This document shows positions 38,500-62,105 of a DNA stretch of 64,000 nt, one piece after another; position 1 is the first letter of the stretch; each line of letters begins with the position of its first letter. The notes under the pieces were generated by a model. The model saw only the letters and a program-made list of their open reading frames with translations. It was not told the origin of the DNA and did not search any database. Location of the stretch: the IMG/VR virus record IMGVR_UViG_3300017717_002521, positions 27,140-91,139 of that record; one strand, written 5' to 3'. The position numbers and the translations under genes were made by a program. This DNA comes from a virus.

Positions 38500-38500
38500 A

Positions 38501-39298: not shown

Positions 39299-40584
39299 AT
39301 AAAGATATAATGGTTATTAGCGCTCCTGTAGATACCTACTCAGGGTATGGAGCTAGAGCTAGAGATTTAATCAAAGCTATAATTAATTTAGACAGGTATG
39401 AGATAAAGATACTTTCTCAAAGATGGGGTAATACTAGATTCGGGTACTTAAAAGATCATAATGATACTGAGTTAAGTTCTAGAATAGTAGATAAGTTACA
39501 ATCAAAACCAGATATATGGATACAAATTACTGTTCCTAATGAATTTCAACCTATGGGAAAATATAACATAGGAGTAACTGCTGGTATAGAAACTACTATA
39601 TGTCATGGTAGTTGGTTAGAGGGTTGTAATAGAATGAATCTTGTAATTACTTCTTCACAACACAGCAAAAACGTATTCGAAAAAACTGTATTTGAAAAAA
39701 TAAATAATCAAACTAAACAAAAAGAAGGAGATTTAAAAGTTACTACTCCTGTAGAAGTATTATTAGAAGGAGCTGATTTATCTAAATACTTTGTTACTAA
39801 AGTAAATTCTAATACAGAAATAGTTAAGTCAGTAGATTCTATTAAAGAATCATTTTGTTATCTATCTGTAGGACATTGGATGCAAGGCAATTTCGGGGAG
39901 GATAGAAAAAATATAGGTTATTTAATTAAAGCTTTTACTGAAGTATTTAAAAATAAAATGAAGAAACCTGCTTTAATACTTAAAACTCAAAAAGTAGGAA
40001 GCTCAATAATCGATCAAGAATATTTACTTAGACAGATAAATGCTATTAGAAGAGAGACTAAAGGAACATTACCTAAAATTTATATACTTCACGGAGAAAT
40101 ATCAGACTATGAAATGAATCAATTATATAATCATCCTAAAGTTAAAGCGATGGTTAGCTTTACAAAAGGAGAAGGTTTTGGAAGGCCATTACTTGAATTT
40201 AGTTTAACCGGTAAACCAATAGTAGCATCAGGATGGTCAGGACAAGTTGATTTTTTAGATAAAGATAAAGCTATTCTCATAGGAGGTTCATTAGAAAACG
40301 TTCATGAGTCAGCAAGTATGAAAGATATGATACTTACTGAAGCGAAATGGTTTAAACCTGATGATAATCAAGTAGGGCATGCTTTTAAAGAAACTTATAA
40401 GAATTATAAAAATTATATTCAACCTGCAAAATCTTTAGCTCATAGAAATAAAAAACTATTTAGCTTTGAAGCTATGGAAGAAATTATAAAGAGTTTATTT
40501 GATAAATATATCCCTGAATTTCCAAAGCAAGTGGAACTGAAACTTCCTTCTCTAAAATTACCTAAATTAGTAAAAAATGGATAA
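39295..40584 (+). CDS. glycosyltransferase, GT4-like
   Basis: 429 residues. The start has VDTYSGYGARARDLI (Gly-rich N-terminal loop); the donor domain has LEGADLSKYF, SVGHWMQGNFGEDRKNIGYL and FTKGEGFGRPLLEFSLTGKP with the E-x7-E motif. It overlaps the SGNH gene by four bases and the next by eight. Confidence 0.87.
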   Translation: MNKDIMVISAPVDTYSGYGARARDLIKAIINLDRYEIKILSQRWGNTRFGYLKDHNDTELSSRIVDKLQSKPDIWIQITVPNEFQPMGKYNIGVTAGIETTICHGSWLEGCNRMNLVITSSQHSKNVFEKTVFEKINNQTKQKEGDLKVTTPVEVLLEGADLSKYFVTKVNSNTEIVKSVDSIKESFCYLSVGHWMQGNFGEDRKNIGYLIKAFTEVFKNKMKKPALILKTQKVGSSIIDQEYLLRQINAIRRETKGTLPKIYILHGEISDYEMNQLYNHPKVKAMVSFTKGEGFGRPLLEFSLTGKPIVASGWSGQVDFLDKDKAILIGGSLENVHESASMKDMILTEAKWFKPDDNQVGHAFKETYKNYKNYIQPAKSLAHRNKKLFSFEAMEEIIKSLFDKYIPEFPKQVELKLPSLKLPKLVKNG

Positions 40585-41047
40585 CTTAATACAAAGCCCA
40601 GTCAGTGATAGTAATGCTTGTTATGTTACTGAACTAAACGATGGAATTACTTCTTATTTAGATTTCGGGAGTGGTTTTACTACTACTACTTTAATGATTG
40701 AAAAATCGCAACAAGTAGCTAATGCAATAGAATCATCACCAGAACTTTTTAAAGATATTAGGAAGATTGATAAAGATGGGTTAATATGGTTTCCTGCTAC
40801 TATATCTATTCCTAATTCCGGAATGGTTTTTGCTGATGGTACTTCTAAAGATGACTGGAAATGGTCGGCTGTTAAATCTATTTCTCTTACAGAAGATGAA
40901 ATTCAATCTGGTAAGTTTCCTGCTGGTCAGGCTACTAAAATGGATATGAATAATGCAAAAAGTTTTCCAAGAGAAAAAGGATTTATAGATGCTTTAGAGG
41001 AAATAGGATTCTTTGGTATTGATTTTACTAAACCAACAGTTAAATGA
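40577..41047 (+). CDS. hypothetical protein, 156 aa
   Basis: Not recognised. A soluble alpha/beta protein without signal peptide or cysteine cluster. WFPATISIPNSGMVFADGT and KMDMNNAKSFPREKGF look like conserved patches. Coupled on both sides within the glycan locus, but no enzymatic motif is visible. Confidence 0.7.
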   Translation: MDNLIQSPVSDSNACYVTELNDGITSYLDFGSGFTTTTLMIEKSQQVANAIESSPELFKDIRKIDKDGLIWFPATISIPNSGMVFADGTSKDDWKWSAVKSISLTEDEIQSGKFPAGQATKMDMNNAKSFPREKGFIDALEEIGFFGIDFTKPTVK

Positions 41048-41673
41048 AAATAACCTTCGCTATAACAGTATGTAACGAACAATTTGAGATAATCAGGTTA
41101 GTTGAAATGATTTTAGCTAATAAAAGGACACAAGACGACATAGTGGTGTTGTATGATCAAACTAACGGTAATTCTGAAATACCTACTTGGTTAACAAAAA
41201 AATCTAATCTTCCTGGTTTTCAATTTTGGAGAGGAGCTTTTAAAGGTAACTTTGCTGATTGGAAAAATAAATTAACTGAGTACTGTTCTGGGGATTATAT
41301 ATTTCAGATAGATGCTGATGAATATCCTAATAAAGAATTATTTACTTATCTTCCTATGATATTAGAATCTAATCCTAACAATGAAGTTTATTTAGTTCCT
41401 AGAGTAAATACTGTAGAAGGTCTTACTGAAGGTCATACTAAAAAATGGGGATGGAATGTAAGTAATAAAGGTTGGATAAACTGGCCGGACTATCAATGGC
41501 GTATATGGAAAAATAAACCTGAGATCAAATGGAAAAATAAAGTACATGAAGTACTTACTGGTTTTAAAGCTTACGCTCCATTACCAGCGGAAGAAAAATT
41601 AGCATTGTATCATCCAAAGACGATTGACCGTCAAGAAATACAGAATAAATATTATGAATCTCTCATTAATTAA
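41044..41673 (+). CDS. glycosyltransferase, GT2-like
   Basis: 209 residues. MKITFAITVCNEQFEIIR is the GT2 nucleotide-binding start; YIFQIDADEYPN is the DxD metal motif; KVHEVLTGFKAY and LYHPKTIDRQ lie in the acceptor region. It overlaps the FkbM-type methyltransferase gene by 20 bases. Confidence 0.88.
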   Translation: MKITFAITVCNEQFEIIRLVEMILANKRTQDDIVVLYDQTNGNSEIPTWLTKKSNLPGFQFWRGAFKGNFADWKNKLTEYCSGDYIFQIDADEYPNKELFTYLPMILESNPNNEVYLVPRVNTVEGLTEGHTKKWGWNVSNKGWINWPDYQWRIWKNKPEIKWKNKVHEVLTGFKAYAPLPAEEKLALYHPKTIDRQEIQNKYYESLIN

Positions 41674-42256
41674 TAACTATTTTGATCCTAAAACAGTATT
41701 AGATATAGGAGCGAATGTAGGGCAGTTTCATTCTAATGCTAAAAGCATTTGGCCAGAAAGCTATATTTTTTCTATAGAAGCTTCAGATGCTTGTGAACCA
41801 TATTTAAATGAAATTACTAATGACTATCTTATTTGCCTATTGACTAAAGATGATACTAAGTATGAATTTTTTAGTCGCAAAAATGATCCAACCTGTACTG
41901 GTAATTCAATATATAGAGAACTAACTGAATTTTACTCTGACGATCAATTAGATGTAATTAAAAAGGACGGTATTAAACTTGACGATTTATTTACTAAAGA
42001 TTCGATGTTTGATCTAATAAAAATTGACACCCAGGGATCAGAGCTAGATATTTTAGAAGGAGGAAAAGAATTATGCAAAAAAGCAAAAGGTATTCTGTTA
42101 GAAGTTTCGTTTAATGAATATAATTTAAATGCTCCTTTGGTAGATCAAGTACTTAAATATATGGATAATTTTAAGTTTAAACCTGCTATAGTTTTGGACA
42201 TTCAGACTAATCATGGTTCACACCAAGAAGATATTTTATTTTTAAATGAAAGATAA
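41654..42256 (+). CDS. FkbM-family methyltransferase
   Basis: 200 residues starting at ATG 41654 (a TTG 30 bases earlier is less likely). VLDIGANVGQFHSNAKSIWP is the SAM-binding motif I; FSIEASDACEPYL is the motif II acid; LIKIDTQGSELDILEGG and ILLEVSFNEY are FkbM family markers. It probably O-methylates a sugar in the glycan made by the surrounding transferases, a common way to cap or mask glycans. Confidence 0.92.
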   Translation: MNLSLINNYFDPKTVLDIGANVGQFHSNAKSIWPESYIFSIEASDACEPYLNEITNDYLICLLTKDDTKYEFFSRKNDPTCTGNSIYRELTEFYSDDQLDVIKKDGIKLDDLFTKDSMFDLIKIDTQGSELDILEGGKELCKKAKGILLEVSFNEYNLNAPLVDQVLKYMDNFKFKPAIVLDIQTNHGSHQEDILFLNER

Positions 42257-43016
42257 TTTACTTATAGGAGCTGTAAGCGGAAATTACGGTGTAGAAGATA
42301 TTAAAACTTGGGTAGATACCTCAGAGTATGGCTTTAGTAGAACTCTTATAGTATTTAATGCTAAAGACAACAATGAATTACTTCCATATTTAGAATCTAA
42401 AAATATAAAATACATTCTTCCTACTTTCGATTTTTGGGGTAACGAAAAAGATTTTTTTGAACATCACACAGGTAAAATGAATTTGCAGAATAGCTTTGAT
42501 CTTATACATAATATGAGATTTATGTATATTCATAAGTATCTACAAGAACAGAAGTATAATAAAGTATTAGTAACTGACGTAAAAGACGTTAAGTTTAATA
42601 GTGATCCTTTTACTATGCTTCCATCCGACAAGTTAGTAGCTACAGGAGAAGTTATAAAGTATAAAGATGATGAATGGAATATGCAGCATTTAATTTATAA
42701 TATCGGTATATTTGGATTTGATTTTAAAGAAGAAGAAGTACTTAACGTAGGAGTTTTTGGAGGTTCAGCTGATTTAGTTAGAGATTTAAGCAGAGATATA
42801 TTTTTACTATCCGCTGGTAAACCTAAAGTAGCTGATCAAACTTCATTTAATTACTTAGCTAGAACATTATATAAAGATAAGTTTATTTTTACCAGCATAC
42901 ATGATAAGATCGCTGTTCATCTTCAGGTTATAGTAAATGGGTTAGTTGAATTTGATTATAGTACTATTCCGTACTACCCAATAGTTCATCAATACGATAG
43001 AATAAAAGATGTATAG
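42246..43016 (+). CDS. glycosyltransferase-like protein
   Basis: 256 residues. KVLVTDVKDVKFNSDPF is a DxKD variant of the metal-binding motif; NVGVFGGSADLVRDLS and VADQTSFNYLAR match the follow-on motifs of GT-A enzymes in the GT8/GT77-like group. The final HQYDRIKD is in the usual place of the last metal-binding His. Confidence 0.78.
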   Translation: MKDNLLIGAVSGNYGVEDIKTWVDTSEYGFSRTLIVFNAKDNNELLPYLESKNIKYILPTFDFWGNEKDFFEHHTGKMNLQNSFDLIHNMRFMYIHKYLQEQKYNKVLVTDVKDVKFNSDPFTMLPSDKLVATGEVIKYKDDEWNMQHLIYNIGIFGFDFKEEEVLNVGVFGGSADLVRDLSRDIFLLSAGKPKVADQTSFNYLARTLYKDKFIFTSIHDKIAVHLQVIVNGLVEFDYSTIPYYPIVHQYDRIKDV

Positions 43017-43719
43017 TATTATAATATCATATAGAGATAGAGAGTCACATTTAGAAATGCTTCTTCCTAGACTAGAAGAACTTTTTGATAGTAAAGACTA
43101 TGAAATTATTATAGCTGAACAAGATAATAATGAAAAGTTTCAGAAGAATAGTTTATACAATTTAGCCGCAGTAAGAGCTAAAGGAGATATTTTTATATTT
43201 CATGATGTTGATTACTACCCTGTTGAAGATATTTCTTATGATACTAAAGTCGATGTTCCATTTTACCCAGTTGGTAAAGTTTTATTTTTAAATGAAAATA
43301 ATCAACCGAGAAAAATTGAAGATATTCCTGCTGGGTATAGAAATTTTCACGTTACAGTAGGAGATCATTCAGGAGGGGTATTTGTTCTTTCAAAAGAATT
43401 ATTTTTTAAAACTAATGGACTAAATCCTTTTTTCAAAGGTTGGGGTAAGGAAGATGATGCAACTAGAGATAGATTAAGATTTTTAGGATATAATTGGAAA
43501 AGAAATAACAAAGCTTTATTTTATGCTCTATACCATAAGGATAGTAAACCTGATGATAACGATAATGACTTTGTAAATAATAATAAACTCTATATGAATC
43601 TTACCTCAGATACTGAAGTAGGTTTAAATAATGTTAACGGTAAGGTAGAAGAGTTTGATATGCCTGATCATTCTAATGTAAGATGGTTAAAAATAAAAGA
43701 TTTTGAATATAAAAGTTAA
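43009..43719 (+). CDS. glycosyltransferase, GT7/galactosyltransferase-like
   Basis: 236 residues. YSIIISYRDRESHLEMLLPR at the start, IFIFHDVDYYPV (DVD metal site), SGGVFVLSKELFFKTNG and FFKGWGKEDDATRDRLR closely follow beta-1,4-galactosyltransferase-type GT7 enzymes, including the GWGxEDD acceptor/catalytic motif. The donor could be UDP-Gal, UDP-GalNAc or another sugar. Confidence 0.88.
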   Translation: MYSIIISYRDRESHLEMLLPRLEELFDSKDYEIIIAEQDNNEKFQKNSLYNLAAVRAKGDIFIFHDVDYYPVEDISYDTKVDVPFYPVGKVLFLNENNQPRKIEDIPAGYRNFHVTVGDHSGGVFVLSKELFFKTNGLNPFFKGWGKEDDATRDRLRFLGYNWKRNNKALFYALYHKDSKPDDNDNDFVNNNKLYMNLTSDTEVGLNNVNGKVEEFDMPDHSNVRWLKIKDFEYKS

Positions 43720-44092
43720 TATTTCACCAGGAGAGTTATTAGATAAAATTTCTATTATAGAACTCAAACTTCTTAAAATAAACGATACAGCTAAACTTAA
43801 TAATATTATGATTGAGTTTGAAGCTCTAAACCCTCAAGTAGTAGAATTATTAGAAAAATTTAAAGAACCTCTTAAACAAAAGTATTTGCATCTTTCAGAA
43901 GTTAATGAAACGTTATGGGATATAGAGGATGCTATTAGAGTAAAGGAAAAGAATAAAGAGTTTGATAGTAAATTTATAGAGCTTGCAAGATCAGTTTATA
44001 GACAAAATGATAAAAGAAGTATTATTAAAAAGTTTATAAATCAAATGACTGACTCTAGTTTAACAGAAGAAAAATCATATGAAGAATACTAA
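43703..44092 (+). CDS. DUF6165-like protein
   Basis: A 129-residue helical protein, start TTG 43703 since no suitable ATG precedes the conserved ISPGELLDKISIIELKLL opening. That opening, with KLNNIMIEFEAL, matches the DUF6165 family found in LPS/glycan gene sets; its function is unknown. It overlaps neighbours on both sides by 17 and 14 bases. Confidence 0.72.
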   Translation: MNIKVNISPGELLDKISIIELKLLKINDTAKLNNIMIEFEALNPQVVELLEKFKEPLKQKYLHLSEVNETLWDIEDAIRVKEKNKEFDSKFIELARSVYRQNDKRSIIKKFINQMTDSSLTEEKSYEEY

Positions 44093-44963
44093 AGTTCTAG
44101 TAATTACTTATGGTTACTTTGGGGATATAGCTTTTGCGTCTTCTTTAGCTGAGTTTCTAAAAAAAGAATACGATACTGTTGATTACCTGATAGGGTTTCC
44201 TCAAATGAGAAAATTAATAAATAATAATCCTTTTATAAACAAAGTATTCGTACCTCCTAATCCAGGTCCAGCTCCTTCAACTAGCGTTGAATTTCAGTTA
44301 ACGTATTCGAAAGTTATACAATTAGGTCCTTTATCGTTTACTAAACCTCCAGTGGTAGAATATAAACAGCAAGCAGGAATAAAGGATAAAAGCCCTGAAT
44401 ATAAACTTTATACCGATCCTGATTTGGATTCAGCTGTTCAGACTTTATTTACTGATTTGCCTAAAAATAAAAAAGTTATAGCTGTTATGAATAATTGGAA
44501 GGAGAAAACTTTTACTTTTACAGAAGAGCAATATAAAGCAGGAATAGATGTTCCAAATTTAGGTTATGGTGGGGCTCATAGAGATACAGATAAAATTATT
44601 TCGGTACTCTCAGATTATTTTACTATATTAACAGTAGGAGTAGATGGAAGCAATCAACATCAAACTGTTAATACTGATGATTACGATTCAAAATCTATTT
44701 TATTTGAAACTTCTATTATGAAATACTGTAATGCTTTTGTAGGTGCTGAAGGAGGTTTATGTAATTTAGCTGCAGGAGTTGGCACCAGTACCATTATTAC
44801 AGGAGATTTTATACATCAACTGTATGGATGGAATGGAGTAATAAAAAAAATTAATGAGCCTAAATTAGGACCCGAAAATTATTTTAAAGAGGGTAAGCAT
44901 AAAACATTAGACCCTTACCTATCAGATGAACAAGTTGTTGAACAAATAAAATTATTACTATGA
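44079..44963 (+). CDS. glycosyltransferase, GT9/heptosyltransferase-like
   Basis: 294 residues, GT-B-like. VLVITYGYFGDIAFASSLAE (GD motif of heptosyltransferases), VDYLIGFPQMRKLINNNPF, VIAVMNNWKEK and the C-terminal CNAFVGAEGGLCNLAAGVGT, where GT9 enzymes bind the nucleotide sugar. It may add a heptose-like or related sugar. Confidence 0.78.
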   Translation: MKNTKVLVITYGYFGDIAFASSLAEFLKKEYDTVDYLIGFPQMRKLINNNPFINKVFVPPNPGPAPSTSVEFQLTYSKVIQLGPLSFTKPPVVEYKQQAGIKDKSPEYKLYTDPDLDSAVQTLFTDLPKNKKVIAVMNNWKEKTFTFTEEQYKAGIDVPNLGYGGAHRDTDKIISVLSDYFTILTVGVDGSNQHQTVNTDDYDSKSILFETSIMKYCNAFVGAEGGLCNLAAGVGTSTIITGDFIHQLYGWNGVIKKINEPKLGPENYFKEGKHKTLDPYLSDEQVVEQIKLLL

Positions 44964-45676
44964 CTAAAAAATTAAATATACTTATTCCAATGGCTGGAGC
45001 TGGAAGTAGATTCCAAGAGGCAGGATATAATCTTCCTAAGCCATTGATAGATGTTAAAGGTAAACCTATGATTCAACACGTGGTCGAAAATATTGCTTTA
45101 GAAGGTAGATATATTTTTATAGTCCAAAAAGAACATTACGAAAAATATTCTTTAAAATATATTCTTAAATTAATTAAACCAGACTGTGAAATTATTATTA
45201 CGGATGGATTAACTGAAGGAGCAGCATCAACTACTTTACTTGCTAAAGATTTAATAAATACAGATGATGCTTTATTGATAGCTAATTCTGATCAATGGAT
45301 AGATTGGGCTCCTAATCATTTTTATGATTACGTTAACAGAAGAAATGCTGATGGAGCTATACTTTCTTTTATATCTAATTCTCCTAAACATAGTTACTCT
45401 AAAATAGAGAATGGTTATATAACTGAAGTAGCAGAAAAAAAAGTTATTAGTAATCATGCAACAGTAGGAATATACTATTGGAAAAAAGGAAGAGACTATA
45501 TAGACTGTACTAATAATATGATAGAAAAAAACATAAGGTATAATAATGAATTTTATGTCTGCCCAGTTTATAATCAACTGATAGAAAAAGGTGGGATGGT
45601 TCTTCCATACGCTATACCACAGATGCACGGTATGGGAACTCCTGAAGAATTAAATAAATTTCTTAGTATAAATTAA
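44960..45676 (+). CDS. sugar-phosphate nucleotidyltransferase
   Basis: 238 residues. LNILIPMAGAGSRFQEAGY is the GxGxRF nucleotide-binding loop; LPKPLIDVKGKPMIQHVV the PKP signature Lys; LLIANSDQWIDW the metal-binding Asp; VAEKKVISNHATVGIYYW the sugar-binding region. It activates a sugar phosphate to an NDP-sugar. It ends exactly where the RuBisCO-like gene begins (TAATG), so the two may act on the same precursor. Confidence 0.9.
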   Translation: MTKKLNILIPMAGAGSRFQEAGYNLPKPLIDVKGKPMIQHVVENIALEGRYIFIVQKEHYEKYSLKYILKLIKPDCEIIITDGLTEGAASTTLLAKDLINTDDALLIANSDQWIDWAPNHFYDYVNRRNADGAILSFISNSPKHSYSKIENGYITEVAEKKVISNHATVGIYYWKKGRDYIDCTNNMIEKNIRYNNEFYVCPVYNQLIEKGGMVLPYAIPQMHGMGTPEELNKFLSIN

Positions 45677-46860
45677 TGAATATATTTAAATTAGAATCTC
45701 AGATAAATAAAGATGAATATTTTATAGTGGAATACTATCTAGGTTCCTCTATTAATCTTAGAGAAGCATCATGGCAACTTGCTATAGGTCAAAGTGTCGG
45801 TAATCCTAACGTTCGTAATAGATGGGAAACTGATGAATTATTCGAAAAGTATTCATGTTTAATATTAGATACTGAAAAGAACTTAAGTCAAAAAAAAGAA
45901 GGTAAGGTTAAAATAGCTTTTCCTGTAATTAATATAGATTTTAAAACTGATGGTATTGCTCATTTGTTAGTTAACATTATGGGAGGTCAAATGGATATAG
46001 AATCAATTGATGTATGTCAAGTATTAAATATATACTTTCCTCAATCGGTTCATGATCTATTTTTAGGACCTAAATTTGGAATAGAAGGCATAAGAAAATT
46101 TACAGGAGTAAATAATAAACCTTTACTAGGTGCTATAGTTAAACCTAAAACTGGTATAAGTGCTAGTCTGCTCTTACAGATGGTAAAAGAATTAGTAGAA
46201 GGAGGAGTTAATTTTATTAAAGAGGATGAAATTATGTCTAACCCTTCTTTCTGTACTATAGAAGAAAGAGTTCCATTAATAATGGATTACTTGAAAGATA
46301 AAAATGTTATTTATTCTGTCTCTATCCATGCTGATCCTCATCAAGTACTAGAGAGAGTAAAACTTGTTCATAAGCTAGGAGGTAATAGCGTTCACGTTAA
46401 TTTCTGGTGTGGAATGGGTATATATAAATCTATAAGAGAACTTGATCTTCCATTATTTGTACATTTTCAAAAAAGTGGAGATAAAATACTTACTAACCGT
46501 AAACATAATTACTATATTGAATGGAAAGTTATTAGTAAACTAGCAGGTATGATGGGAGTAGACTTTATTCATGCAGGTATGATAGGAGGGTACTATAAAT
46601 GGGACGAAGACGAAGTATTAGATTCAGTAGACGAACTACATAAATATGGAGTAATGCCAGCTTTAAGTTGCGGGTTTCATCCTGGGCTAACTGATTTGGT
46701 TTGTAAAAAAGTTGGTAATGATTTTATGGCTAATGTTGGAGGAGCTATTCATGGACATCCCGAAGGTACTTTAGCAGGAGCTAAAGCAATGAGACAAAGC
46801 TTAGATAAAAAGTATGGAGTAGAATATTTTCAAGCTATATCTAAATGGGGTAAAGCATAA
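45676..46860 (+). CDS. RuBisCO-like protein (form IV type)
   Basis: A 394-residue member of the RuBisCO large-subunit superfamily. Landmarks: GAIVKPKTGIS (K156, K158, equivalent to spinach K175/K177), FIKEDEIMSNP with K182, D184 and E185 at the positions of carbamylated K201, D203 and E204, H263 at the H294 place, FIHAGMIGG with H299 (H327), SCGFHPG with S331 (S379) and NVGGAIHGHPEGT (phosphate loop). The loop 6 Lys (K334) is Tyr306 and R295 is Phe264, so carboxylation of ribulose bisphosphate is unlikely. RuBisCO-like proteins instead enolise, isomerise or decarboxylate related sugar acids or sulfur compounds. Its place after a nucleotidyltransferase and among glycosyltransferases suggests making an unusual sugar. 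Confidence 0.9.
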   Translation: MNIFKLESQINKDEYFIVEYYLGSSINLREASWQLAIGQSVGNPNVRNRWETDELFEKYSCLILDTEKNLSQKKEGKVKIAFPVINIDFKTDGIAHLLVNIMGGQMDIESIDVCQVLNIYFPQSVHDLFLGPKFGIEGIRKFTGVNNKPLLGAIVKPKTGISASLLLQMVKELVEGGVNFIKEDEIMSNPSFCTIEERVPLIMDYLKDKNVIYSVSIHADPHQVLERVKLVHKLGGNSVHVNFWCGMGIYKSIRELDLPLFVHFQKSGDKILTNRKHNYYIEWKVISKLAGMMGVDFIHAGMIGGYYKWDEDEVLDSVDELHKYGVMPALSCGFHPGLTDLVCKKVGNDFMANVGGAIHGHPEGTLAGAKAMRQSLDKKYGVEYFQAISKWGKA

Positions 46861-46862
46861 TT

Positions 46863-47549
46863 ATGAAAAAAATAGCATTATGCATCTCAGGACAGCCTAG
46901 ATTTGTTGAGGAAGGTTATGAAAAAGTTTTAAAGCCATTTGTTTTAGATGGAAATGATGTAGATGTATTTATTCATAGTTGGATACCTGACGAAGAGCAA
47001 ATAGGTAAACCTTATATTAATGCTGGAGGACATCCTATGGGAAAAGAAGTTGAAGAAGGTATATTTGATACTGTATCTAAACTTTATAATCCTACTCGAA
47101 CTTTTTATGAGAAGCAAAGATTTTTTGAGTTCGGTAAATATGCTGAAAGAACTCTTCCTCATATAAGAAGTGATTACCTTTTTAGTATGTTTTATTCTAT
47201 CTGGAAGTCTAATAATATTCTAAATGATTATATAATAGAAACTGGTATAGAATACGATTGGGTAGTTAGATCTAGATTTGATGTTCAGCTAAATAAGAAA
47301 ATTGATTTTAATCTTAACGCTTCTTCTATCTTAGTTCCTTATGGGTGTTGGAGTGATGAAGGATTAGTAGATTGTTTTGCATATTCAAATAAATCTAATA
47401 TGGATATATACTGCAATCTTTATAATAATATTGATTATATAATGCATTCTTCTGACATTGGTTTTTGTTGTGAATTTATTCTTAAACAATATTTAGATAC
47501 TATGAAAATAGACGTTCAAGAACTATTCTGGCATTCTCTTTATAGATGA
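46863..47549 (+). CDS. glycan-locus protein, glycosyltransferase-like
   Basis: 228 residues. Opens KKIALCISGQPRFVEEGYE, has VDVFIHSWIPDE and YDWVVRSRFDVQLNKK (an RxRFD site in the DxD position), and ends ELFWHSLYR. This pattern is recurrent in phage and bacterial glycan loci and is thought to be a GT-A-like fold. It shares a general layout with the protein at 62120. Confidence 0.62.
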   Translation: MKKIALCISGQPRFVEEGYEKVLKPFVLDGNDVDVFIHSWIPDEEQIGKPYINAGGHPMGKEVEEGIFDTVSKLYNPTRTFYEKQRFFEFGKYAERTLPHIRSDYLFSMFYSIWKSNNILNDYIIETGIEYDWVVRSRFDVQLNKKIDFNLNASSILVPYGCWSDEGLVDCFAYSNKSNMDIYCNLYNNIDYIMHSSDIGFCCEFILKQYLDTMKIDVQELFWHSLYR

Positions 47550-48004
47550 AAATAATATCACATAGAGGAAATTTATCAGGGCCTGATCCTAAACAAGAAA
47601 ACAAACCATCTCAAATTATAAGTGCTATTGAAAAAGGATATGAAGTTGAAATAGATGTATGGTTTAAAGATAAAAAGTTTTATTTAGGACATGATGAACC
47701 TCAGTACGATTTTCCGTTTGAATTATTAGAAAAGTTTTATACTAAATTATGGGTTCATGCTAAATCTTTTGATACTTTAAATAAACTAAAAGATATAGAT
47801 TATGATGGTAATTATTTAAATTATTTTTGGCATCAATCTGATGATTATGTTTTAACTTCTAAAGGATATATTTGGACTTTCCCTAATAAATTCTTATCTT
47901 ATAATAGTATTTGTGTCAAACCAGAAATACAGACAGAAAAAGTTTTTTTAGACTGTGCAGGTATATGTACGGATTTTCCTATTAAGTATGAAAATAATTT
48001 ATAG
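47546..48004 (+). CDS. short glycerophosphodiester-phosphodiesterase-like protein
   Basis: 152 residues. ISHRGNLSG (His-Arg of the GDPD active site), KGYEVEIDVWFKDKKFYLGH (Glu, Asp, His metal and base residues) and LWVHAKS follow the GDPD TIM-barrel order, but the protein is about 90 residues shorter than typical enzymes and lacks the last strands. It may be a minimal phosphodiesterase that trims or recycles glycan-linked phosphodiesters. Confidence 0.75.
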   Translation: MKIISHRGNLSGPDPKQENKPSQIISAIEKGYEVEIDVWFKDKKFYLGHDEPQYDFPFELLEKFYTKLWVHAKSFDTLNKLKDIDYDGNYLNYFWHQSDDYVLTSKGYIWTFPNKFLSYNSICVKPEIQTEKVFLDCAGICTDFPIKYENNL

Positions 48005-48680
48005 AATATCGGACGCAGGTTATAATAAAGTCAAACCCGATTTTATTACTAACGAAATATGTTTAAGGAATTTTGTAGATGTATTTCTTCCTAACGATTT
48101 TACTGTTATAGCTGATAATATATCTGAGGATACTAAAAAAATGATACTTGAGTATATTCCTGAAGATTGTATTGAATATGTAAAAGTAGGTCATGGAGCA
48201 GGTACTTTTAATCTAGCATTAGATAAAGCATTAACTTATAGTGATGAAGAAATAATTTACTTTATTGAGAATGATTATCTGCACACCCCAGATGCTAAAA
48301 AAATATTAAAAGAAGGTTTCGATATTGGAGCTTCTTTCGTATCTTTATATGATCATCCTGATAAGTATCTTTCTCCAGATAGAGGAGGTAATCCATACTG
48401 TCAAGGTGGAGCAGAAGATACTAGAGTGTATTTAACTAGTAACTCTCATTGGAAAATAACTAATAGTACTACTATGACTTTTGCCGCTAAGGTTAAAACT
48501 TTGAAAGAGACTGAAAGAACTTTAAGAGAATTTACTAATGGAACTCACCCTCATGATTTCCAAATGTTTCTTAAGCTAAGAGAGCAAAATCAATTATTAA
48601 TAACCCCTATACCAGGTAAGTCTACTCATGGAGAAACTGCTTGGTTGTCACCACTAATAGATTGGAATAAATATGCATAA
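47988..48680 (+). CDS. glycosyltransferase-like protein
   Basis: 230 residues from ATG 47988 (an in-frame GTG at 47955 lies deep in the previous gene). KIIYRISDAGYNKVKPDF opens it; EIIYFIENDYLHTPDA provides an END/DxD-like metal site; GNPYCQGGAEDTRVYLT and GKSTHGETAWLSP are conserved in related proteins of glycan loci. Acceptor unknown. Confidence 0.72.
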   Translation: MKIIYRISDAGYNKVKPDFITNEICLRNFVDVFLPNDFTVIADNISEDTKKMILEYIPEDCIEYVKVGHGAGTFNLALDKALTYSDEEIIYFIENDYLHTPDAKKILKEGFDIGASFVSLYDHPDKYLSPDRGGNPYCQGGAEDTRVYLTSNSHWKITNSTTMTFAAKVKTLKETERTLREFTNGTHPHDFQMFLKLREQNQLLITPIPGKSTHGETAWLSPLIDWNKYA

Positions 48681-49758
48681 CAAAACAATTTTAATTACCG
48701 GAGTAGCTGGATTATTAGGAAGCAGATTAGCCGAATATATAATCGAAAAGAAACCTGGTAATACCGTTATAGGTATAGATGACCTTTCAGGAGGATATAA
48801 AAGTAATATACCTAAAGAGGTCAAATTTTACAAAGCAAATACTTTTGATGATAAGATTAAAGATATATTTGAATTAGAGCAACCTGATATAGTATATCAT
48901 TTTGCTGCTTATGCTGCTGAAGGTTTATCTCCCTTCATTCGTACTTTTAACTACGATAATAATTTAAAGAGTACTGCTTCTATAGTTAACGAATGTATTA
49001 AACATAACGTAGAAAGGTTAGTATTTACTTCTACTATGGCCGTTTACGGTAATGGATGGCAAGGTAAAAGACCTTTTGAAGAAATAGACCCTCCTCGTCC
49101 GATAGATCCATACGGTATTGCTAAGTATGCCTGCGAAATGGATATACAATGTGCCGGTGAACAGCATGAATTAGATTGGTGTATACTCAGACCTCACAAC
49201 GTTTACGGACGTAATCAAAATATATGGGATAAATATAGGAACGTTTTAGGTATTTGGATGTATCAATATATGAATAATATACCTCTAACTATCTTTGGTG
49301 ATGGTTCTCAAAGAAGAGCTTGGAGTAGTATAGATGATTGTTTAGAGCCAATGTGGAAGGCTGCATTTATTCCTAAAGCATCTAAAGAAATAATTAACCT
49401 AGGAGGTCCTGAGTTCACAACTATTAATGAAGCTTGTAGAGTAGTAAGAAATGTTATAGGTGGAGGAGATAAAGCTCTTATAGAAAAGATTGAGGTAGTA
49501 TATGAAGAAGCTAGACATGAAGTCAAAAATGCTTACCCAACATGGAAGAAGTCTGAATTAATATTAGGTTTTGAACATACTACTTCTTTAGAAGACGGAT
49601 TGACTGAGATGTGGAAATGGGCTCAGACTCAACCTAACAGAGAAAGATTTGTCTGGAAAAAATATGAATTAGAAAAAGGAATATATAATTTTTGGAAAAA
49701 TGATAAGTCTAATAATACCAACTTACCGCAACCCGAAGTATCTGGATATTTGTCTTAA
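48673..49758 (+). CDS. NAD-dependent nucleotide-sugar epimerase/dehydratase
   Basis: A 361-residue extended SDR enzyme. ITGVAGLLGSRLAEYI is the GxxGxxG NAD site; IGIDDLSGG holds the Asp that selects NAD(H); VFTSTMAVYG and DPYGIAKYACE supply the Ser/Thr and YxxxK catalytic residues; LRPHNVYG and FGDGSQRRAW bind the sugar nucleotide. It resembles UDP-glucose 4-epimerases and related dehydratases. The last 59 bases overlap the next gene. Confidence 0.93.
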   Translation: MHNKTILITGVAGLLGSRLAEYIIEKKPGNTVIGIDDLSGGYKSNIPKEVKFYKANTFDDKIKDIFELEQPDIVYHFAAYAAEGLSPFIRTFNYDNNLKSTASIVNECIKHNVERLVFTSTMAVYGNGWQGKRPFEEIDPPRPIDPYGIAKYACEMDIQCAGEQHELDWCILRPHNVYGRNQNIWDKYRNVLGIWMYQYMNNIPLTIFGDGSQRRAWSSIDDCLEPMWKAAFIPKASKEIINLGGPEFTTINEACRVVRNVIGGGDKALIEKIEVVYEEARHEVKNAYPTWKKSELILGFEHTTSLEDGLTEMWKWAQTQPNRERFVWKKYELEKGIYNFWKNDKSNNTNLPQPEVSGYLS

Positions 49759-50497
49759 ATCTGCCGTAGAAGGTCAGATTAACTATAAGGATAAGAACGA
49801 AATAATAGTAGTTGTAGATGGCTTTGTAGAAGAAAGCAAAGATGTCTTAGAGAAATACAAGGGAAAAGTTCAAGTACTTCCTCTAGAAGGTAATCTTGGT
49901 ATGCAAATGGCTCTTAATTTAGGAGTTATGAATGCTACCAATGAACGAATAATGATTATTAATGATGATAATGTTCTATGTGTAGGTTGGGATTCTATAT
50001 GGGCAGATATGTCTGAAGGAGAAGTAATAACTATAAATCAAATTGAACCTACAGGACCAGGTATATTTAATTTTCCTGTGAAAGATCTTGGAAAGACCCC
50101 AGAGGAGTTTGACTATGATGATTTTGTTCTTTATGAAACCAGTATAAGTTCTAACGAAGTATCAGATGATGGAGGTATATTTCCTTTTGCCATATTTAAA
50201 AAGAATTATATGATGGTAGGGGGATTTGATACTGTTTACCAATCACCTTTTATTTGTGACTGGGATTTCTTTCTTAAGTTAGAATTAGCTGGGTGTACTT
50301 TTACTAGAACACATAGTCAACATTTTTACCACTTTGGTTCTACTGCTACTAAGAACGGCAAAGAGGGAGAAGCTTTCAAAGCTACTGAAGCACCAGCTGC
50401 TGAAACTTATATTTATAAATGGGGAACACCTCCAGGTATTTATGAAAATAATTCTCATATACCTAAAGGTAAATTAATTAAAGGAATACAATTTTAA
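49700..50497 (+). CDS. glycosyltransferase, GT2-like
   Basis: 265 residues. ISLIIPTYRNPKYLDICLKS and EIIVVVDGFVEES open the GT-A fold; IMIINDDNVLCVGW is the DxD motif; PFICDWDFFLKLELAGCTF contains the ED-like catalytic segment. It starts 59 bases before the end of the epimerase gene, an unusually long overlap that leaves its first 19 residues encoded in two frames. Confidence 0.9.
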   Translation: MISLIIPTYRNPKYLDICLKSAVEGQINYKDKNEIIVVVDGFVEESKDVLEKYKGKVQVLPLEGNLGMQMALNLGVMNATNERIMIINDDNVLCVGWDSIWADMSEGEVITINQIEPTGPGIFNFPVKDLGKTPEEFDYDDFVLYETSISSNEVSDDGGIFPFAIFKKNYMMVGGFDTVYQSPFICDWDFFLKLELAGCTFTRTHSQHFYHFGSTATKNGKEGEAFKATEAPAAETYIYKWGTPPGIYENNSHIPKGKLIKGIQF

Positions 50498-50674
50498 ATG
50501 GAAAAGAAATACTTAATAGAATTTACTCATGCAGATGGGACTAAAGAAGAAGTAGAATTAGTTACTGATAGATTAAAATGGTCTATTGATCAGTGGTCTA
50601 GACATAGAGCTGTAGTAAGTCATAAAATTTTAGAAGAAGGAAGTTCTAACGCTAAAAATATGTTACTTGGATGA
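50498..50674 (+). CDS. small hypothetical protein, 58 aa
   Basis: Not recognised. Starts right after the GT2 stop codon and overlaps the dehydrogenase start by four bases. A beta hairpin-like KKYLIEFTHADGTKEEVELV and a basic helix WSIDQWSRHRAVVSHK can be seen. Confidence 0.65.
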   Translation: MEKKYLIEFTHADGTKEEVELVTDRLKWSIDQWSRHRAVVSHKILEEGSSNAKNMLLG

Positions 50675-51504
50675 TAGGAATAATAGGTCAAGGTTTTGTT
50701 GGTAATGCAGTATATCAAAAGTTTAAAAATTTCTATGAAGTTTTAACTTACGATTTAGATAAAGAAAAATCTAATTCAACTTTAGATGATTTAATATTTA
50801 GAAGTGAAACTATATTCGTATGTCTTCCAACTCCTATGAATAAGAATGGGTCTTGCGATACTACTATACTTGAACAATCTTTATATAACTTAGATCTAGT
50901 TGCAGACAATTTAGAGACTAAAAGAACTATTATAATTAAATCTACTATACCTCCAGGAACAACAGATAAATTTAATAAACAATACCCAGCTCTAAATATA
51001 GTATTTAATCCTGAATTTTTAACTGAAAGGAATGCTGTAAAAGATTTTGAAAATCAAAATAGGATAATAATTGGAGGACCAAGACCTGTAACTACAGAGG
51101 TTAAGACTATTTTTAGTAAAGTTTTTCCTAAATCACATATTATTAAGACTGATTCTTCTCATGCAGAAATGATAAAGTATATGACTAATACATTCTTAGC
51201 AACTAAAATATCTTTTGCTAATGAAATATATCAGCTATGTAGTAAATTAAATATAGATTACGATAAGGTAGTAGAGTACGCAACTTTAGACGATAGATTA
51301 GGTGAATCACATTGGGGAGTTCCAGGTCATGATGGAGACTTGGGATTTGGTGGCCATTGTTTCCCTAAGGATTTGGCAGCGTTACTCTACTTATCTTATC
51401 AATATAATACAACTAACGGAGTACTTAAAGCTACACAAGAAACAAACAATAAAGTTAGAAGCGATAGAGATTGGGAAAGAATGAAAGGAAGAGCTGTCTC
51501 CTAG
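50671..51504 (+). CDS. short nucleotide-sugar 6-dehydrogenase
   Basis: 277 residues of the UDP-glucose/UDP-mannose dehydrogenase family, which oxidises a sugar to a uronic acid. GIIGQGFVGNAVY binds NAD; IIKSTIPPGTTDKF, FNPEFLTERNAVKD, EMIKYMTNTFLATKISFANE and FGGHCFPKDL with catalytic C230 and K233 are intact. The usual C-terminal UDP-binding domain (~120 residues) is missing; the protein ends 45 residues after the Cys. The short form occurs in some phages; how it binds substrate is open. Confidence 0.9.
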   Translation: MIGIIGQGFVGNAVYQKFKNFYEVLTYDLDKEKSNSTLDDLIFRSETIFVCLPTPMNKNGSCDTTILEQSLYNLDLVADNLETKRTIIIKSTIPPGTTDKFNKQYPALNIVFNPEFLTERNAVKDFENQNRIIIGGPRPVTTEVKTIFSKVFPKSHIIKTDSSHAEMIKYMTNTFLATKISFANEIYQLCSKLNIDYDKVVEYATLDDRLGESHWGVPGHDGDLGFGGHCFPKDLAALLYLSYQYNTTNGVLKATQETNNKVRSDRDWERMKGRAVS

Positions 51505-51542
51505 CTATTTATAATGTAGTACCTATATTCTAATATACAATT

Positions 51543-51932
51543 ATGAGTAATAAAATCGAACAATACGTAAAAAAGTTAATAAGCGAAGCTGCTAGAATTA
51601 AATTTGCTGGTCACACGTTTGTATTAAAAGTGGATACTAACGAAGATCCACAGAAGAAAGGAGTAAAGGTTCAGTTTCTCCCTACTCAATTCGGCTCTAT
51701 TACTTCTACAGAGCAAAATGACATTGCTATAGAATTAGAAAAAAGACTATCGAAAGGATTAGAGCAATTCGATATGAAAGTTGAAAGAGATAGAAATCTC
51801 AAAGATAAGACTATTATAGGTTTCTTTATTTATATAGAATACTTTGATCGAATTATAAGAAAAGCTTTATCAGGAACTAATCCTGAATCTGAGTATCAAC
51901 CTAACGATGCTAATGATAACAAAGAGGTATAA
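51543..51932 (+). CDS. hypothetical protein, 129 aa, possibly structural
   Basis: Not recognised. An alpha/beta protein with FVLKVDTNEDPQKKGVKVQF and TIIGFFIYIEYFDRIIRKAL, acidic at the end. A TATTTATA-rich, promoter-like gap precedes it, and it is the first gene after the glycan locus. It is paired with the gene at 51936. Confidence 0.65.
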   Translation: MSNKIEQYVKKLISEAARIKFAGHTFVLKVDTNEDPQKKGVKVQFLPTQFGSITSTEQNDIAIELEKRLSKGLEQFDMKVERDRNLKDKTIIGFFIYIEYFDRIIRKALSGTNPESEYQPNDANDNKEV

Positions 51933-51935
51933 TAA

Positions 51936-52790
51936 ATGGCTTTATACGGTCTCTATTTCAAAGAAAAAAGTGAACGAGTATTTAAACGTACTAACATAGT
52001 TCCTGATGATCCTGAGGATAGAATTGAAGCTAATAGTCCAGTTGTAGCTCGTTTAAATTTTATTCGTAAGCTTAAATTACCTTTTAAACAATTTCAAAAA
52101 CTTTATTCAGTAAGAAAAATAGCCTCTTTAGATTCTTTAGATATTAAGCAAAAAGATAATATACTTTTAGCTGCTGCTATAGAAGAAGCTACTGTTGTTG
52201 CTTCTTATGAGGATAGAAGGAAAATAAGAACTGAAGAAGCAGTAAATCGAAATAAAGGTTTAGCTACACAATTAGTAGTTAAGGATTTTAATCCTCATAT
52301 GATGTATGATCCTGAGACTAGTGAAGGGATAATGGTTAAGACCTACGAAGATCATGTTAAATATAATGAACTTGGGTACACTCATGATAAACCAGTTATA
52401 AAAAGAATCCCAGAAGAAACAACGACAGTAAATTTGACTCCTATATCTGATGAAAAATTATCTAGAGATCAAGAATTAGAACGAAAGAGAATTGCTAATA
52501 GGAGTCCTAATAAAGATAAATTTAGAACTAAAGAAGATCAAAGAAAAAGAGCAGAGGAAAAGAAAAATGCCTTTTCCAAAGATACTAAATTTGGTCCTAG
52601 AAAAAGAATTAAATCTACAACAAGAACTATTCGACCTGATAAGCAAGAAGGACAACAAGAAGTAGATATAGTTCAAGAAGTCAGTACTGAAACTGTGGTA
52701 GAAGATCCAGGTAGAATATCTTACCCTTCAACAGGAGGTGGTTCAGTATCTGGAGGAGGATCCAGCGGCGGAGGCGGCGGTGGTTATTAG
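51936..52790 (+). CDS. hypothetical protein with Gly-rich tail, 284 aa, possibly structural
   Basis: Not recognised. The first ~170 residues are globular (ALYGLYFKEKSERVFKRTN), followed by a long basic, disordered stretch (residues ~175-235) and a Gly/Ser tail GGGSVSGGGSSGGGGGGY. Such disordered tails occur in virion or scaffolding-type proteins, but the assignment is only a guess. Confidence 0.65.
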   Translation: MALYGLYFKEKSERVFKRTNIVPDDPEDRIEANSPVVARLNFIRKLKLPFKQFQKLYSVRKIASLDSLDIKQKDNILLAAAIEEATVVASYEDRRKIRTEEAVNRNKGLATQLVVKDFNPHMMYDPETSEGIMVKTYEDHVKYNELGYTHDKPVIKRIPEETTTVNLTPISDEKLSRDQELERKRIANRSPNKDKFRTKEDQRKRAEEKKNAFSKDTKFGPRKRIKSTTRTIRPDKQEGQQEVDIVQEVSTETVVEDPGRISYPSTGGGSVSGGGSSGGGGGGY

Positions 52791-57285: not shown

Positions 57286-58113
57286 ATGAAAGATGTTATG
57301 TTAAGTTTTGGTAAAGGTTTAGATGGGTACCTAACCAAAGATCAGATTAGAAACTCCTCTCCATTAGTATTTGCAGATGCACCTACTAACCCAGATGTTA
57401 GTAGTAAATACTTGTTTGTTAACACTGAAACTATTATTGATGATCTAGATAAGTTAGGATGGTTACCAGTTCAAGCTGCTCAAAGAAAGAGCAGAAAAGA
57501 AGGAGGTACTATCTTTTCAAAGCATATGGTTGCTTTCCAGAATCCAGATATTAAGATTACTTCAGCTGATGGTGATGATGCTTACCCTAGAATACTTCTT
57601 ACTAACTCTCATGATGGTATGCAATCGTTTAAATTCTCAGTAGGTATATTTAGACTAGTATGTAGTAACGGTTTAGTTGTTGCTGATGAGAAATTTAGTG
57701 ACTTTAATATTAAGCATAAGGGGTATACTTTTACTGAACTTAGAAATGTAGTTAAGCAAGCAGTAGAAGATCTTCCTAATAGAGTTCAGGTAATGAATGA
57801 TATGAAGAATAGAATCTTAACTGAAGAAGAGAAGAGAAAATTAGCTTTAGATGCTATGCTTATTAGAGCTGGAGTTAAAGAGCTTCAGTATGATGAAGAG
57901 ACTATTACTGATATTTTAGATCCTAAAAGAGATGCTGATAAAGGAAATGACCTTTGGAGAGTCTTCAATGTTGTTCAAGAGAAGATTACTCAAGGAGACT
58001 TTCATGCTGCTTTAACTGGAGCTAAAGTACGTAAGGTACGTAAGATTAAATCCTTTGAGAAGGATATGAAAGTTAATAAAGAGTTGTTTAAGTTAGCTAC
58101 AGCATTAGTTTAA
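57286..58113 (+). CDS. DUF932-like protein
   Basis: 275 residues. YLFVNTETIIDDLDKLGW, then ILLTNSHDGMQSFKFSVGIF and RLVCSNGLVVADEKF follow the order of DUF932 (a plasmid/phage family of unknown role whose core includes an NSHDG...R.vC.NGl pattern). The C-terminal 90 residues are helical and end in a basic region KVRKVRKIK. It has a strong promoter and may be an abundant early or middle protein. Confidence 0.72.
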   Translation: MKDVMLSFGKGLDGYLTKDQIRNSSPLVFADAPTNPDVSSKYLFVNTETIIDDLDKLGWLPVQAAQRKSRKEGGTIFSKHMVAFQNPDIKITSADGDDAYPRILLTNSHDGMQSFKFSVGIFRLVCSNGLVVADEKFSDFNIKHKGYTFTELRNVVKQAVEDLPNRVQVMNDMKNRILTEEEKRKLALDAMLIRAGVKELQYDEETITDILDPKRDADKGNDLWRVFNVVQEKITQGDFHAALTGAKVRKVRKIKSFEKDMKVNKELFKLATALV

Positions 58114-59638: not shown

Positions 59639-61468
59639 ATGAAAGGAACATTATTTTCAGCAGATTTTGTATTCGATTCGTCGAATAATGCTAGGTTATT
59701 AGAAATTAATACTGATACTTCTTTAACTACCCCCGGTAATGAAAATTTAGATTTTACAGATTTTGGCACTGTTTTATCAGATAGCTCTCTGGATACTCTT
59801 CATATTATCTTTAAGCCTTTTCACCAACTAATAGTAGATAAATTAGTAGATTTTGTAAATAATAATGTTTCAAACATTACTACAATAACATTTCAAGAAG
59901 AAGAAACATGTTCGCTTTATGTAGGTGCAGTTGAAGATGCTAGTAATAAGTTTATACTTAGAATGGCTTACGATGAAGCAGCTATATTAGATTCTGAATA
60001 CGCTAAATCTGAAATAAAATTATATAGTTTATTCAATACTAATAGTGATTTAGATTCTTTACCTCCCTCTTATCATTCTTCTTCTGTTCACGGTATAATA
60101 GATACTATTTCTCAATCGTTTAATGACCCTAATATTCCTGACTTTGTTAAAAAAACTGAAAACGCATCTGGAGCTACTTTATTATCTATAGGATTCTTAA
60201 AAGCAGGTCTTCCGGAAACAGGATCAGATTATAGACTTAATACTTTAATAGAAGAACAAAAAAAAGAAGATGTATTAATATCTAATTTTTTACCCAACCT
60301 ATCAGGTTCTTATACTACTTCAGTAAGATCTATGCAAATAGTATATGGTAATGATTTAGATTTATGTTTTGTTGGTGAACATCAACAAGTTTCTTTATTT
60401 GATATTCCTTCTTCTATTACTACTGGGAGTCTTGACGGTTCTGACAAAGTCTCTCACGAGGTCCATCAAAAACACAGACACGAATTTACAACGAATCATC
60501 CTAAGTATAAGGGAGGTTTAATTAAAACTACTAATATTCTCAGCTCATCAGGTGATGCGTTTAATATTCAAACACTTAACTCTGGATCTGATTACTTTTA
60601 CCAATCTTACTTTGTATCTGGTTCTCCGGATACTGATGCTGTAACTGAACTTAACGATTGGTTTTACTCAGGATCTAACTTTCCTTCAGGTTCCTATTTG
60701 ACTTCTTCTAATGTAATTTTAGTAGAAGAAAACCTTAATCCTGATTTAGACATATACAAATTAGAATTAGAATCTGGTGATACTTTCTTATTAGGAAGTG
60801 TATCTTTATTACCGGTATTAGATACTGGCTCTAATGTAATTACTTGGAAATCTACTGAAAAAGTTTTACCCGGTAATAAAGTATTTGACGAGAATAATAC
60901 TTCCTATTCAGTAGTTTCTAATACTTATCAAATTTCTGATACTAATGGGGAATATGATCTTTATCAACCTAATATGGAAGTAATAGATACTTATATACTT
61001 AAAGGCTCTAGTATGAATTTATTAGTTCATAACCCCTTTGGAGCGGGTAGAGGAGGATGCTTTATTAAAGGTACTGAAATTACTTTACCTAACGGTGATA
61101 ATAAAGCTATAGAAGATATAACTCAAGGTGAGGAAATATTAACTCACAATCATGATTCCGGATTAGACGAAGTAGGTGTAGTAGGTTTTATAGAAACTCT
61201 AGAAGCAAATAAAATAATTAAGATAACTACGGATGGTAAACATACAAAGGAAATTACCTGCACCCTTGAACATCCTTTTTATGCTAATGGTAAGTATATC
61301 CAAGCAGAATATTTAGAAGTTATGGATCTATTGCATACAAATTATGGTGAGGATGTATTTATAAGCAAAGTAGAAATTTTAGACGAAACTCATACAGTCT
61401 ATAATTTAAGAGACGTATCTGATAACCATAACTTTTATGCTAACAACATATTAGTTCATAATAAATAA
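59639..61468 (+). CDS. large protein with C-terminal Hint (intein-like) domain
   Basis: 609 residues. The start FSADFVFDSSNNARLLEINT resembles an ATP-grasp end or a conserved virion protein segment; the middle 400 residues are Ser/Thr/Asn-rich beta-type structure. From residue 474 (GGCFIKGTEITL) to the stop lies a ~136-residue Hint domain: C474, block B TLEH (T542-H545), and the terminal VHN (H607, N608) followed by a single Lys. Such domains self-cleave or transfer the upstream part to a nucleophile. Probable virion or tail-fibre-type protein that is processed; that role is inference. Confidence 0.85.
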   Translation: MKGTLFSADFVFDSSNNARLLEINTDTSLTTPGNENLDFTDFGTVLSDSSLDTLHIIFKPFHQLIVDKLVDFVNNNVSNITTITFQEEETCSLYVGAVEDASNKFILRMAYDEAAILDSEYAKSEIKLYSLFNTNSDLDSLPPSYHSSSVHGIIDTISQSFNDPNIPDFVKKTENASGATLLSIGFLKAGLPETGSDYRLNTLIEEQKKEDVLISNFLPNLSGSYTTSVRSMQIVYGNDLDLCFVGEHQQVSLFDIPSSITTGSLDGSDKVSHEVHQKHRHEFTTNHPKYKGGLIKTTNILSSSGDAFNIQTLNSGSDYFYQSYFVSGSPDTDAVTELNDWFYSGSNFPSGSYLTSSNVILVEENLNPDLDIYKLELESGDTFLLGSVSLLPVLDTGSNVITWKSTEKVLPGNKVFDENNTSYSVVSNTYQISDTNGEYDLYQPNMEVIDTYILKGSSMNLLVHNPFGAGRGGCFIKGTEITLPNGDNKAIEDITQGEEILTHNHDSGLDEVGVVGFIETLEANKIIKITTDGKHTKEITCTLEHPFYANGKYIQAEYLEVMDLLHTNYGEDVFISKVEILDETHTVYNLRDVSDNHNFYANNILVHNK

Positions 61469-61471
61469 ACT

Positions 61472-61603
61472 ATGGCAATTTATAGAGAAAAAACTTCATT
61501 TGAAGTACAAAATAAACCAGTTCATCCTATTACTGCTGACCAGAAGACTAAAGTTCGTGCAATTGTTACAAATTTTATTACATACTTGAAAGCTTCTATT
61601 TAA
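61472..61603 (+). CDS. small hypothetical protein, 43 aa
   Basis: Directly after the Hint-protein stop. AIYREKTSFEVQNKPVHPIT and a helix follow. Not recognised; the support is the packed position and open frame. Confidence 0.5.
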   Translation: MAIYREKTSFEVQNKPVHPITADQKTKVRAIVTNFITYLKASI

Positions 61604-61607
61604 TTAA

Positions 61608-62105
61608 ATGTTAAAGGTTATAGATAATTTTCTTTCAGAAGAAATTTGTAATAAAATTATAAAAGATAATTTATCCAATTTTAAACCTATTCCTGAACTA
61701 CCTCATGTTAGAAGATGTACTTCTAAGTTTATAGAGGCCCCTAAAATTAGAGAAGAACTTATATTTATAGTTAACGAAATAAGAAAAGATCTTACTGTAG
61801 ATTCTACTTTCGAATTTATTCAATACAGTAAAGATGACCATTTTGAATGGCATAACGACGTTAGATTAAATAATCCTAAAACCGAAACTATTTCAGCTAT
61901 TATATTATTAAACAATAATTTTAAGGGGGGTGATTTGCTATATAGAGAAAATTTAAAGATAACTAAATCTAACATTAATGTTGGTTCTTTAATTATTTTT
62001 CCTTCTAAATTGCAACACAAAGTTAATAAAATTACAGAAGGTTTTAGATATAGTTTATGCTGCTGGTTCTATAAAGACAATACTAAATTTAAATCAATAA
62101 TATAG
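61608..62105 (+). CDS. 2-oxoglutarate/Fe(II) oxygenase
   Basis: 165 residues, PKHX/prolyl-hydroxylase-like. Iron ligands H82 and D84 (FEWHNDV) and H137 (SKLQHKV); R147 (GFRYSL) binds 2-oxoglutarate. FKGGDLLY is the conserved turn. It differs from the enzyme at 23462, which uses Lys for 2-oxoglutarate. Phage members of this type have been proposed to hydroxylate structural proteins; it follows the Hint protein closely. Confidence 0.88.
   Translation: MLKVIDNFLSEEICNKIIKDNLSNFKPIPELPHVRRCTSKFIEAPKIREELIFIVNEIRKDLTVDSTFEFIQYSKDDHFEWHNDVRLNNPKTETISAIILLNNNFKGGDLLYRENLKITKSNINVGSLIIFPSKLQHKVNKITEGFRYSLCCWFYKDNTKFKSII

Follow-up and report, generated by a model that had tools for sequence, protein, structure and literature searches.

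A phage gene predicted to couple a permuted ATP-grasp domain to tandem BIL-type Hint domains ending in a lysine

BIL (bacterial intein-like) domains are Hint domains that lack a nucleophilic Cys, Ser or Thr at the +1 position (PMC7664689). Of those described so far, BIL2 from the BUBL1 polyubiquitin-like locus of Tetrahymena thermophila (PDB 6Y75, 6TMM; PMC8616854) is the best match, in both sequence and structure, to the Hint domain that ends the phage protein reported here, and in both a Lys is implicated as acceptor, replacing the canonical +1 nucleophile. However, the BUBL Hints sit between ubiquitin-like domains in a ciliate, whereas the phage Hints follow a predicted ATP-grasp ligase, occur in arrays and end with a single residue. 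The BIL of Clostridium thermocellum (PDB 2LWY) shares the Hint fold, Cys1, the TxxH motif, the HN end and the absence of Cys, Ser or Thr at +1, but resides in different host proteins. The phage inteins gp41-1 and NrdJ-1 have a similar Hint sequence (DNHNFYAN..LVHN), although these splice out between exteins with Cys or Ser at +1, while the phage Hint has no C-extein beyond one Lys. For the N-terminal part of the protein the closest described enzymes are YgiC and YjfC, which have been described as peptide-spermidine ligases (PMC12568646), and the eukaryotic-type glutathione synthetases. With these it shares a permuted ATP-grasp fold over residues 1-289 and, in the case of YgiC, an identical D-x3-D-x8-E-x-N-x-D-T motif; in contrast to them, the phage domain is shorter (291 vs ~386 aa), has ~14% identity in the structural alignment, carries a Hint tail and is found in viruses only. 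In the literature searched, which did not extend to subscription journals, no paper linking ATP-grasp enzymes with Hint arrays was found. To the best of our knowledge, no role has been established for Hint domains that end phage proteins, and we know of no tandem BIL array ending in HN-Lys.

The gene lies in a stretch of 64,000 nucleotides (the window), part of a 91-kb IMG/VR virus record from an uncultured tailed phage. The open reading frame at 59639-61468 (+) runs from ATG to TAA and encodes 609 amino acids. An identical gene is present in three more contigs from other samples (L002-L004) and is, therefore, not an assembly artefact. An AlphaFold2 model of the protein, built from 54 sequences, has a pLDDT of 91. 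Four features were absent from the earlier note on this DNA, i.e., the ATP-grasp fold of residues 1-291, the degenerate Hint at 292-465, the tandem Hints of the relatives and the 43-aa gene that follows. The layout of the locus is as follows.

59639..60511 (+): predicted permuted ATP-grasp domain, residues 1-291 (AF2 model, Foldseek, VIA, motif alignment)
60512..61033 (+): degenerate Hint 1, residues 292-465 (family alignment, hhalign, profile match to BIL 2lwy)
61034..61057 (+): linker PFGAGRGG before Cys474, residues 466-473 (sequence; lowest model confidence at 468-470)
61058..61462 (+): intact BIL-type Hint 2, residues 474-608 (PF07591, TIGR01445, PDB BIL2 6y75/6tmm, family profile)
61463..61465 (+): Lys609 (+1), the sole residue after the Hint, followed by TAA (sequence)
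61472..61603 (+): small partner gene, 43 aa, MAIYREKTSFEVQNKPVHPITADQKTKVRAIVTNFITYLKASI (ORF at the same position in family loci)
61608..62105 (+): 2OG-Fe(II) oxygenase, a recurrent neighbour (PF13640, E 3.9e-11)

Relatives of the gene occur at about 100 IMG/VR loci: a search with the whole protein yielded 30 IMG/VR homologues and a profile of residues 1-290 yielded 99 loci (80 retained); 60 distinct proteins were read. No relative of the N-terminal domain was found in INPHARED phages or plasmids, nor was a relative found in a pattern-limited scan of ~85,000 prokaryote genomes (GTDB). Each of the 20 records searched, including contigs of up to 326 kb, contains one copy of the gene, and a tail sheath was found in ten of them, indicating that at least those are contractile-tailed phages. 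The phage studied here also carries a DUF932 gene (window 57286-58113) with ~72% DNA identity to that of Flavobacterium phage immuto, which hints at a host among the Bacteroidota, as well as a large block of glycosyltransferase and nucleotide-sugar genes (37060-52790), a phage GroEL (19195-20832) and a GTP cyclohydrolase (12296-13201).

The earlier note had drawn attention to the C-terminal end of the protein, where it recognized a Hint domain with C474, TLEH, a terminal HN and one trailing Lys, and all of these residues are indeed present (TLEH at 542-545, H607-N608, K609). The domain itself was borne out well beyond chance: PT-HINT (PF07591; E 3e-12) covers residues 489-608 and TIGR01445 (intein N-terminal region) residues 474-548, both scoring over their cut-offs, and the predicted structure shows the Hint fold. 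Residues 469-609 of the model superimpose on BIL2 (6y75) with a Z of 22.8 and 1.4 A over 137 residues and Hint 2 matches the C. thermocellum BIL with a Z of 21.6, gp41-1 also being among the best structure matches, while the family profile of the last Hint finds BIL2 at an E of 2e-26. The residues of Hint blocks A, B and G are intact, and TxxH is present in 95 of the 102 Cys-type Hints of the family. The domain thus shows the Hint fold, Cys at position 1, the block-B TxxH and the C-terminal His-Asn of a BIL, with Lys609 at +1, where Lys or Arg is found in 52 of the 60 members, the other eight being without an HN end. Other classes of Hint proteins were also considered. A class 1 intein would have a C-extein with Cys, Ser or Thr at +1, but only a Lys follows HN here; there is no sterol-recognition region as in Hedgehog (Hog) proteins, the protein stopping at N608-K609; and no toxin domain lies downstream as in polymorphic-toxin PT-HINT proteins, PF07591 covering the Hint itself. 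An intein in an enzyme and a pretoxin are therefore both ruled out, by the absence of a C-extein and of anything beyond one residue after the Hint, respectively, in agreement with what the note had proposed. The residue that most commonly precedes a Cys-type Hint in the family is Pro (29/102), and a Pro before a Hint usually slows the N-S shift. Judging from the intact motifs, autoprocessing is probable, and a putative self-processing Hint domain at the C terminus of the protein is supported.

The region between this Hint and the N-terminal domain is a second, degenerate Hint. Residues 292-465 match the last Hint with an hhalign probability of 96.4 (E 1.2e-9) and the profile of Hint 1 matches BIL 2lwy at 4.8e-6; Cys1 is replaced by Gly and TxxH is lost, HN is kept (the domain ends in LLVHN465), and there is a conserved GS-rich insertion. 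In the relatives Hint 1 is followed by one (24), two (30) or three (6) Cys-type Hints, many relatives having two to four Hints in tandem. A homing-endonuclease insertion was considered for the longer relatives (720-913 aa) and rejected, since their extra sequence consists of more Hint domains. The Hints could be seen as worn-down inteins: selfish elements, reduced by the loss of the C-extein, whose presence an enzyme gene tolerates at its end. Their sequence similarity to the phage inteins gp41-1 and NrdJ-1 and the degeneration of the first Hint would speak for this. However, catalytic residues are retained in ~95 of the 102 Cys-type Hints, the arrays have expanded to up to four, the +1 residue depends on the position in the array and the Hints, at ~135-165 aa, give no indication of an inserted homing endonuclease, which makes such an origin improbable. 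Alternatively, the Hints may form a non-catalytic scaffold through which the ATP-grasp ligase holds the small protein or enzymes encoded nearby. The variation in array length is consistent with this, as is the finding that Hint 1, although apparently catalytically dead, is kept in every family member with conserved insert residues (S, G, P), but a scaffold leaves the intact Cys1, TxxH and HN-K of the last Hint unexplained and we consider it rather unlikely.

Several other Hint-like sequences were encountered. In seven members (L080, L081, L096, L099, L100, L113 and L128) the last Hint is from a different lineage, which lacks His-Asn and ends in SGLGDNELLN.TFKRQ; from their residues these Hints seem capable of forming a thioester but not of Asn cyclisation. 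A free-standing Hint gene of 166 aa ending in ILVHNKNL (L138:10724-11221) lies ~4.7 kb past the start of the main gene, and a 161-aa ORF that follows the small gene in another locus (L108:8457-8939) groups with the Hint family by similarity and resembles a degenerate free Hint. The loci L034-L062 contain genes that open with an intein C-half ending in VHNC (ORFs mostly ~240-420 aa); these are probable split inteins in phages, the downstream part of which resembles, by inspection only, ribonucleotide reductase or related enzymes.

For the N-terminal domain, sequence-profile searches (Pfam, PHROGs, PDB) gave nothing usable, and only folds matched. With Pfam nothing scored over the cut-off in 19 members, one of which gave a weak RimK-like ATP-grasp match (E 0.25), and the hhalign match to ATP-grasp was weak (P 0.004, probability 8-9%). 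When folded alone, residues 1-291 gave an AF2 model with a pLDDT of 89, for which permuted ATP-grasp enzymes were the sole significant Foldseek matches (YjfC 2.8e-6, YgiC 7.7e-6, homoglutathione synthetase 1.4e-5). With VIA the isolated domain matched yeast and human glutathione synthetase (Z 10.3) and YgiC/YjfC (9.7), followed by TTL, RimK and Ddl; the top 26 rows are all permuted ATP-grasp glutathione, glutathionylspermidine or trypanothione synthetases, matching across nearly the whole domain, with an rmsd of 4-5 A for the fold match. The Mg-binding motif D9-x3-D13-x8-E22-x-N24 has the same spacing as in E. coli YgiC and DdlB, and the match with YgiC extends over the following x-D-T. In the 54 relatives D9, D13, E22, N24, R108, K172 and R230 are invariant and K188 is nearly so; K172 and K188 would be the ATP-binding lysines, and the low-confidence loop 176-181 sits between the strands bearing them, as expected of the flexible ATP-grasp loop. 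Residues 1-291 are, therefore, predicted from the model to be a circularly permuted ATP-grasp ligase of the glutathione-synthetase or YgiC-YjfC type.

This assignment bears on the earlier suggestion that the gene encodes a virion protein, cleaved or cross-linked by its Hint during assembly. Tail-like phage proteins with a C-terminal Hint do exist (e.g., that of L198, with PASTA and Gly/Pro-rich parts and an HNK end) and one of the family loci, L098, is situated ~3 kb from a tail sheath gene. However, the N-terminal part has an ATP-grasp fold with invariant metal-binding residues and no match to any structural family, the neighbouring genes encode modifying enzymes, and the gene has no constant place in a structural module, the sheath gene being tens of kb away in most records that have one (~3-6 kb in two). 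The virion role was thus not upheld and we regard it as quite improbable.

Directly downstream, 3 nt past the stop codon of the Hint gene, begins the gene for a 43-aa protein, and an ORF of 43-53 aa occupies this position in all 60 of the loci listed. In most close pairs, the ORFs differ mainly at third codon positions. A search with a subset of the small-protein sequences alone retrieved 19 loci, in 17 of which the small gene is directly downstream of a family gene and in two of which it lies at a truncated contig end behind an HNK end. The small protein has no Pfam match. Its C terminus varies within the clade of the window's own gene, which weakens the idea of a fixed substrate site. Readthrough of the stop codon into the small gene was rejected: although the two are in frame in the window, other members do not share this, their gaps being of mixed phase and mostly 3-20 nt long. 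The 2OG oxygenase that adjoins the gene, already remarked upon in the note, proved to be more than coincidence, since of the 49 2OG-oxygenase domains in the 20 records 28 are found no more than 8 kb from the gene vs 4.7 expected. The same holds for SET domains (9/13 vs 1.2 expected). Among 61 loci, the first larger gene downstream codes for a 2OG oxygenase 25 times and for a SET protein 16 times. Near many copies (e.g., L080, L074) there is also a sulfation-like set comprising an APS kinase, a DUF2061-like membrane protein and sulfotransferases, several of these names having been assigned by sequence inspection, as well as a carbamoyltransferase, a SPASM-like radical SAM protein and SGNH hydrolases.

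Of the 60 distinct members, 49 have a Lys directly after the last Hint and three an Arg, the remaining eight having no HN end. After internal Hints this residue is mostly R (23), besides K (7) and F (6), and after Hint 1 mostly Ala, Cys, Pro or Ser (A 22, C 11). A Lys at +1 is not universal, since three members have HNR with four to six residues after it and seven end in an HN-less Hint. To avoid bias, 2.9 million IMG/VR contigs were scanned with two patterns in which the +1 codon was left free. The pattern A-N-x-I-x-V-H-N-X-stop retrieved 55 stretches, 54 with Lys, the exception being a 16-aa chance ORF, and N-F-[FY]-A-...-H-N-X-stop gave 45 matches, 44 with Lys, the exception being a chance match with internal stops. 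Every real match in both scans thus ends in Lys, although nearly all are from one family and so do not count as independent. One match came from outside the ATP-grasp/Hint family, i.e., the unrelated tail-like protein of L198:2549-4399 (IMGVR_UViG_3300000439_000061), in which PASTA and Gly/Pro-rich stretches are combined with a C-terminal Hint ending in FFANNILVHNK-stop. When 101 Hint domains are placed on a tree, seven changes are required to account for the Hints with a terminal Lys, at least three of them forced by well-supported branches, indicating that the terminal position retains the Lys as Hint lineages change.

An isopeptide between BIL2 and a Lys in its C-extein has been reported (PMC8616854), which makes Lys609 a plausible acceptor. 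By this analogy the last Hint may be a conjugation device of the BIL/Hedgehog type, in which Lys609 or a lysine of another protein attacks the thioester and the enzyme (or, in trans, another acyl part) becomes attached through an isopeptide bond. The nearest relative in structure and sequence being BIL2, the near-invariant +1 Lys at the end of the array and its recurrence on several Hint lineages speak for such a device, but Lys lies outside canonical splicing chemistry, some members have Arg or lack HN, and the Lys used by BIL2 belongs to the following ubiquitin-like domain. BIL2 is also said to be switched by Zn. We put this forward as a tentative possibility, and hold isopeptide formation with Lys609 itself to be an equally doubtful hypothesis.

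Taken together, we consider the gene to encode a phage ATP-grasp amide ligase, made as a precursor whose tail processes itself and set in a protein- or peptide-modifying cassette, with a probability of roughly 0.6. The architecture and linkage are well supported, while the activity of the N-terminal domain, the cleavage or transfer and the substrate are what we infer from them. The ATP-grasp domain would activate a carboxylate as an acyl phosphate and join it to an amine, as YgiC and YjfC do, with the co-encoded protein of ~45 aa as the likeliest substrate, carrier or partner. The tail is a series of BIL-type Hints, and in the final one the acyl group of Gly473 would move to Cys474 as a thioester and Asn608 would cyclise. 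The thioester might then be resolved by water or, as we favour, by the epsilon-amine of Lys609, the latter route leaving the enzyme part with a Lys in isopeptide linkage. More speculatively, this would amount to a virus-specific conjugation system, in which the BIL array matures the ligase by passing its C-terminal acyl group to the terminal Lys and which, in the course of infection, works with the ~45-aa protein and the 2OG and SET enzymes to produce a peptide or protein bearing modifications; we rate this broader scheme as unlikely to hold in full.

The ATP-grasp/Hint cassette defined here brings together tandem Hints on a predicted amide-bond-forming enzyme, a near-invariant Lys and an obligatory tiny partner gene, and its candidate substrate is directly testable. 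If the Lys is the acceptor, phages would possess an ATP-independent isopeptide-forming device resembling the ciliate BUBL loci as reported, with a possible use in protein ligation. The combination may, therefore, be a new viral route to self-process or attach proteins.
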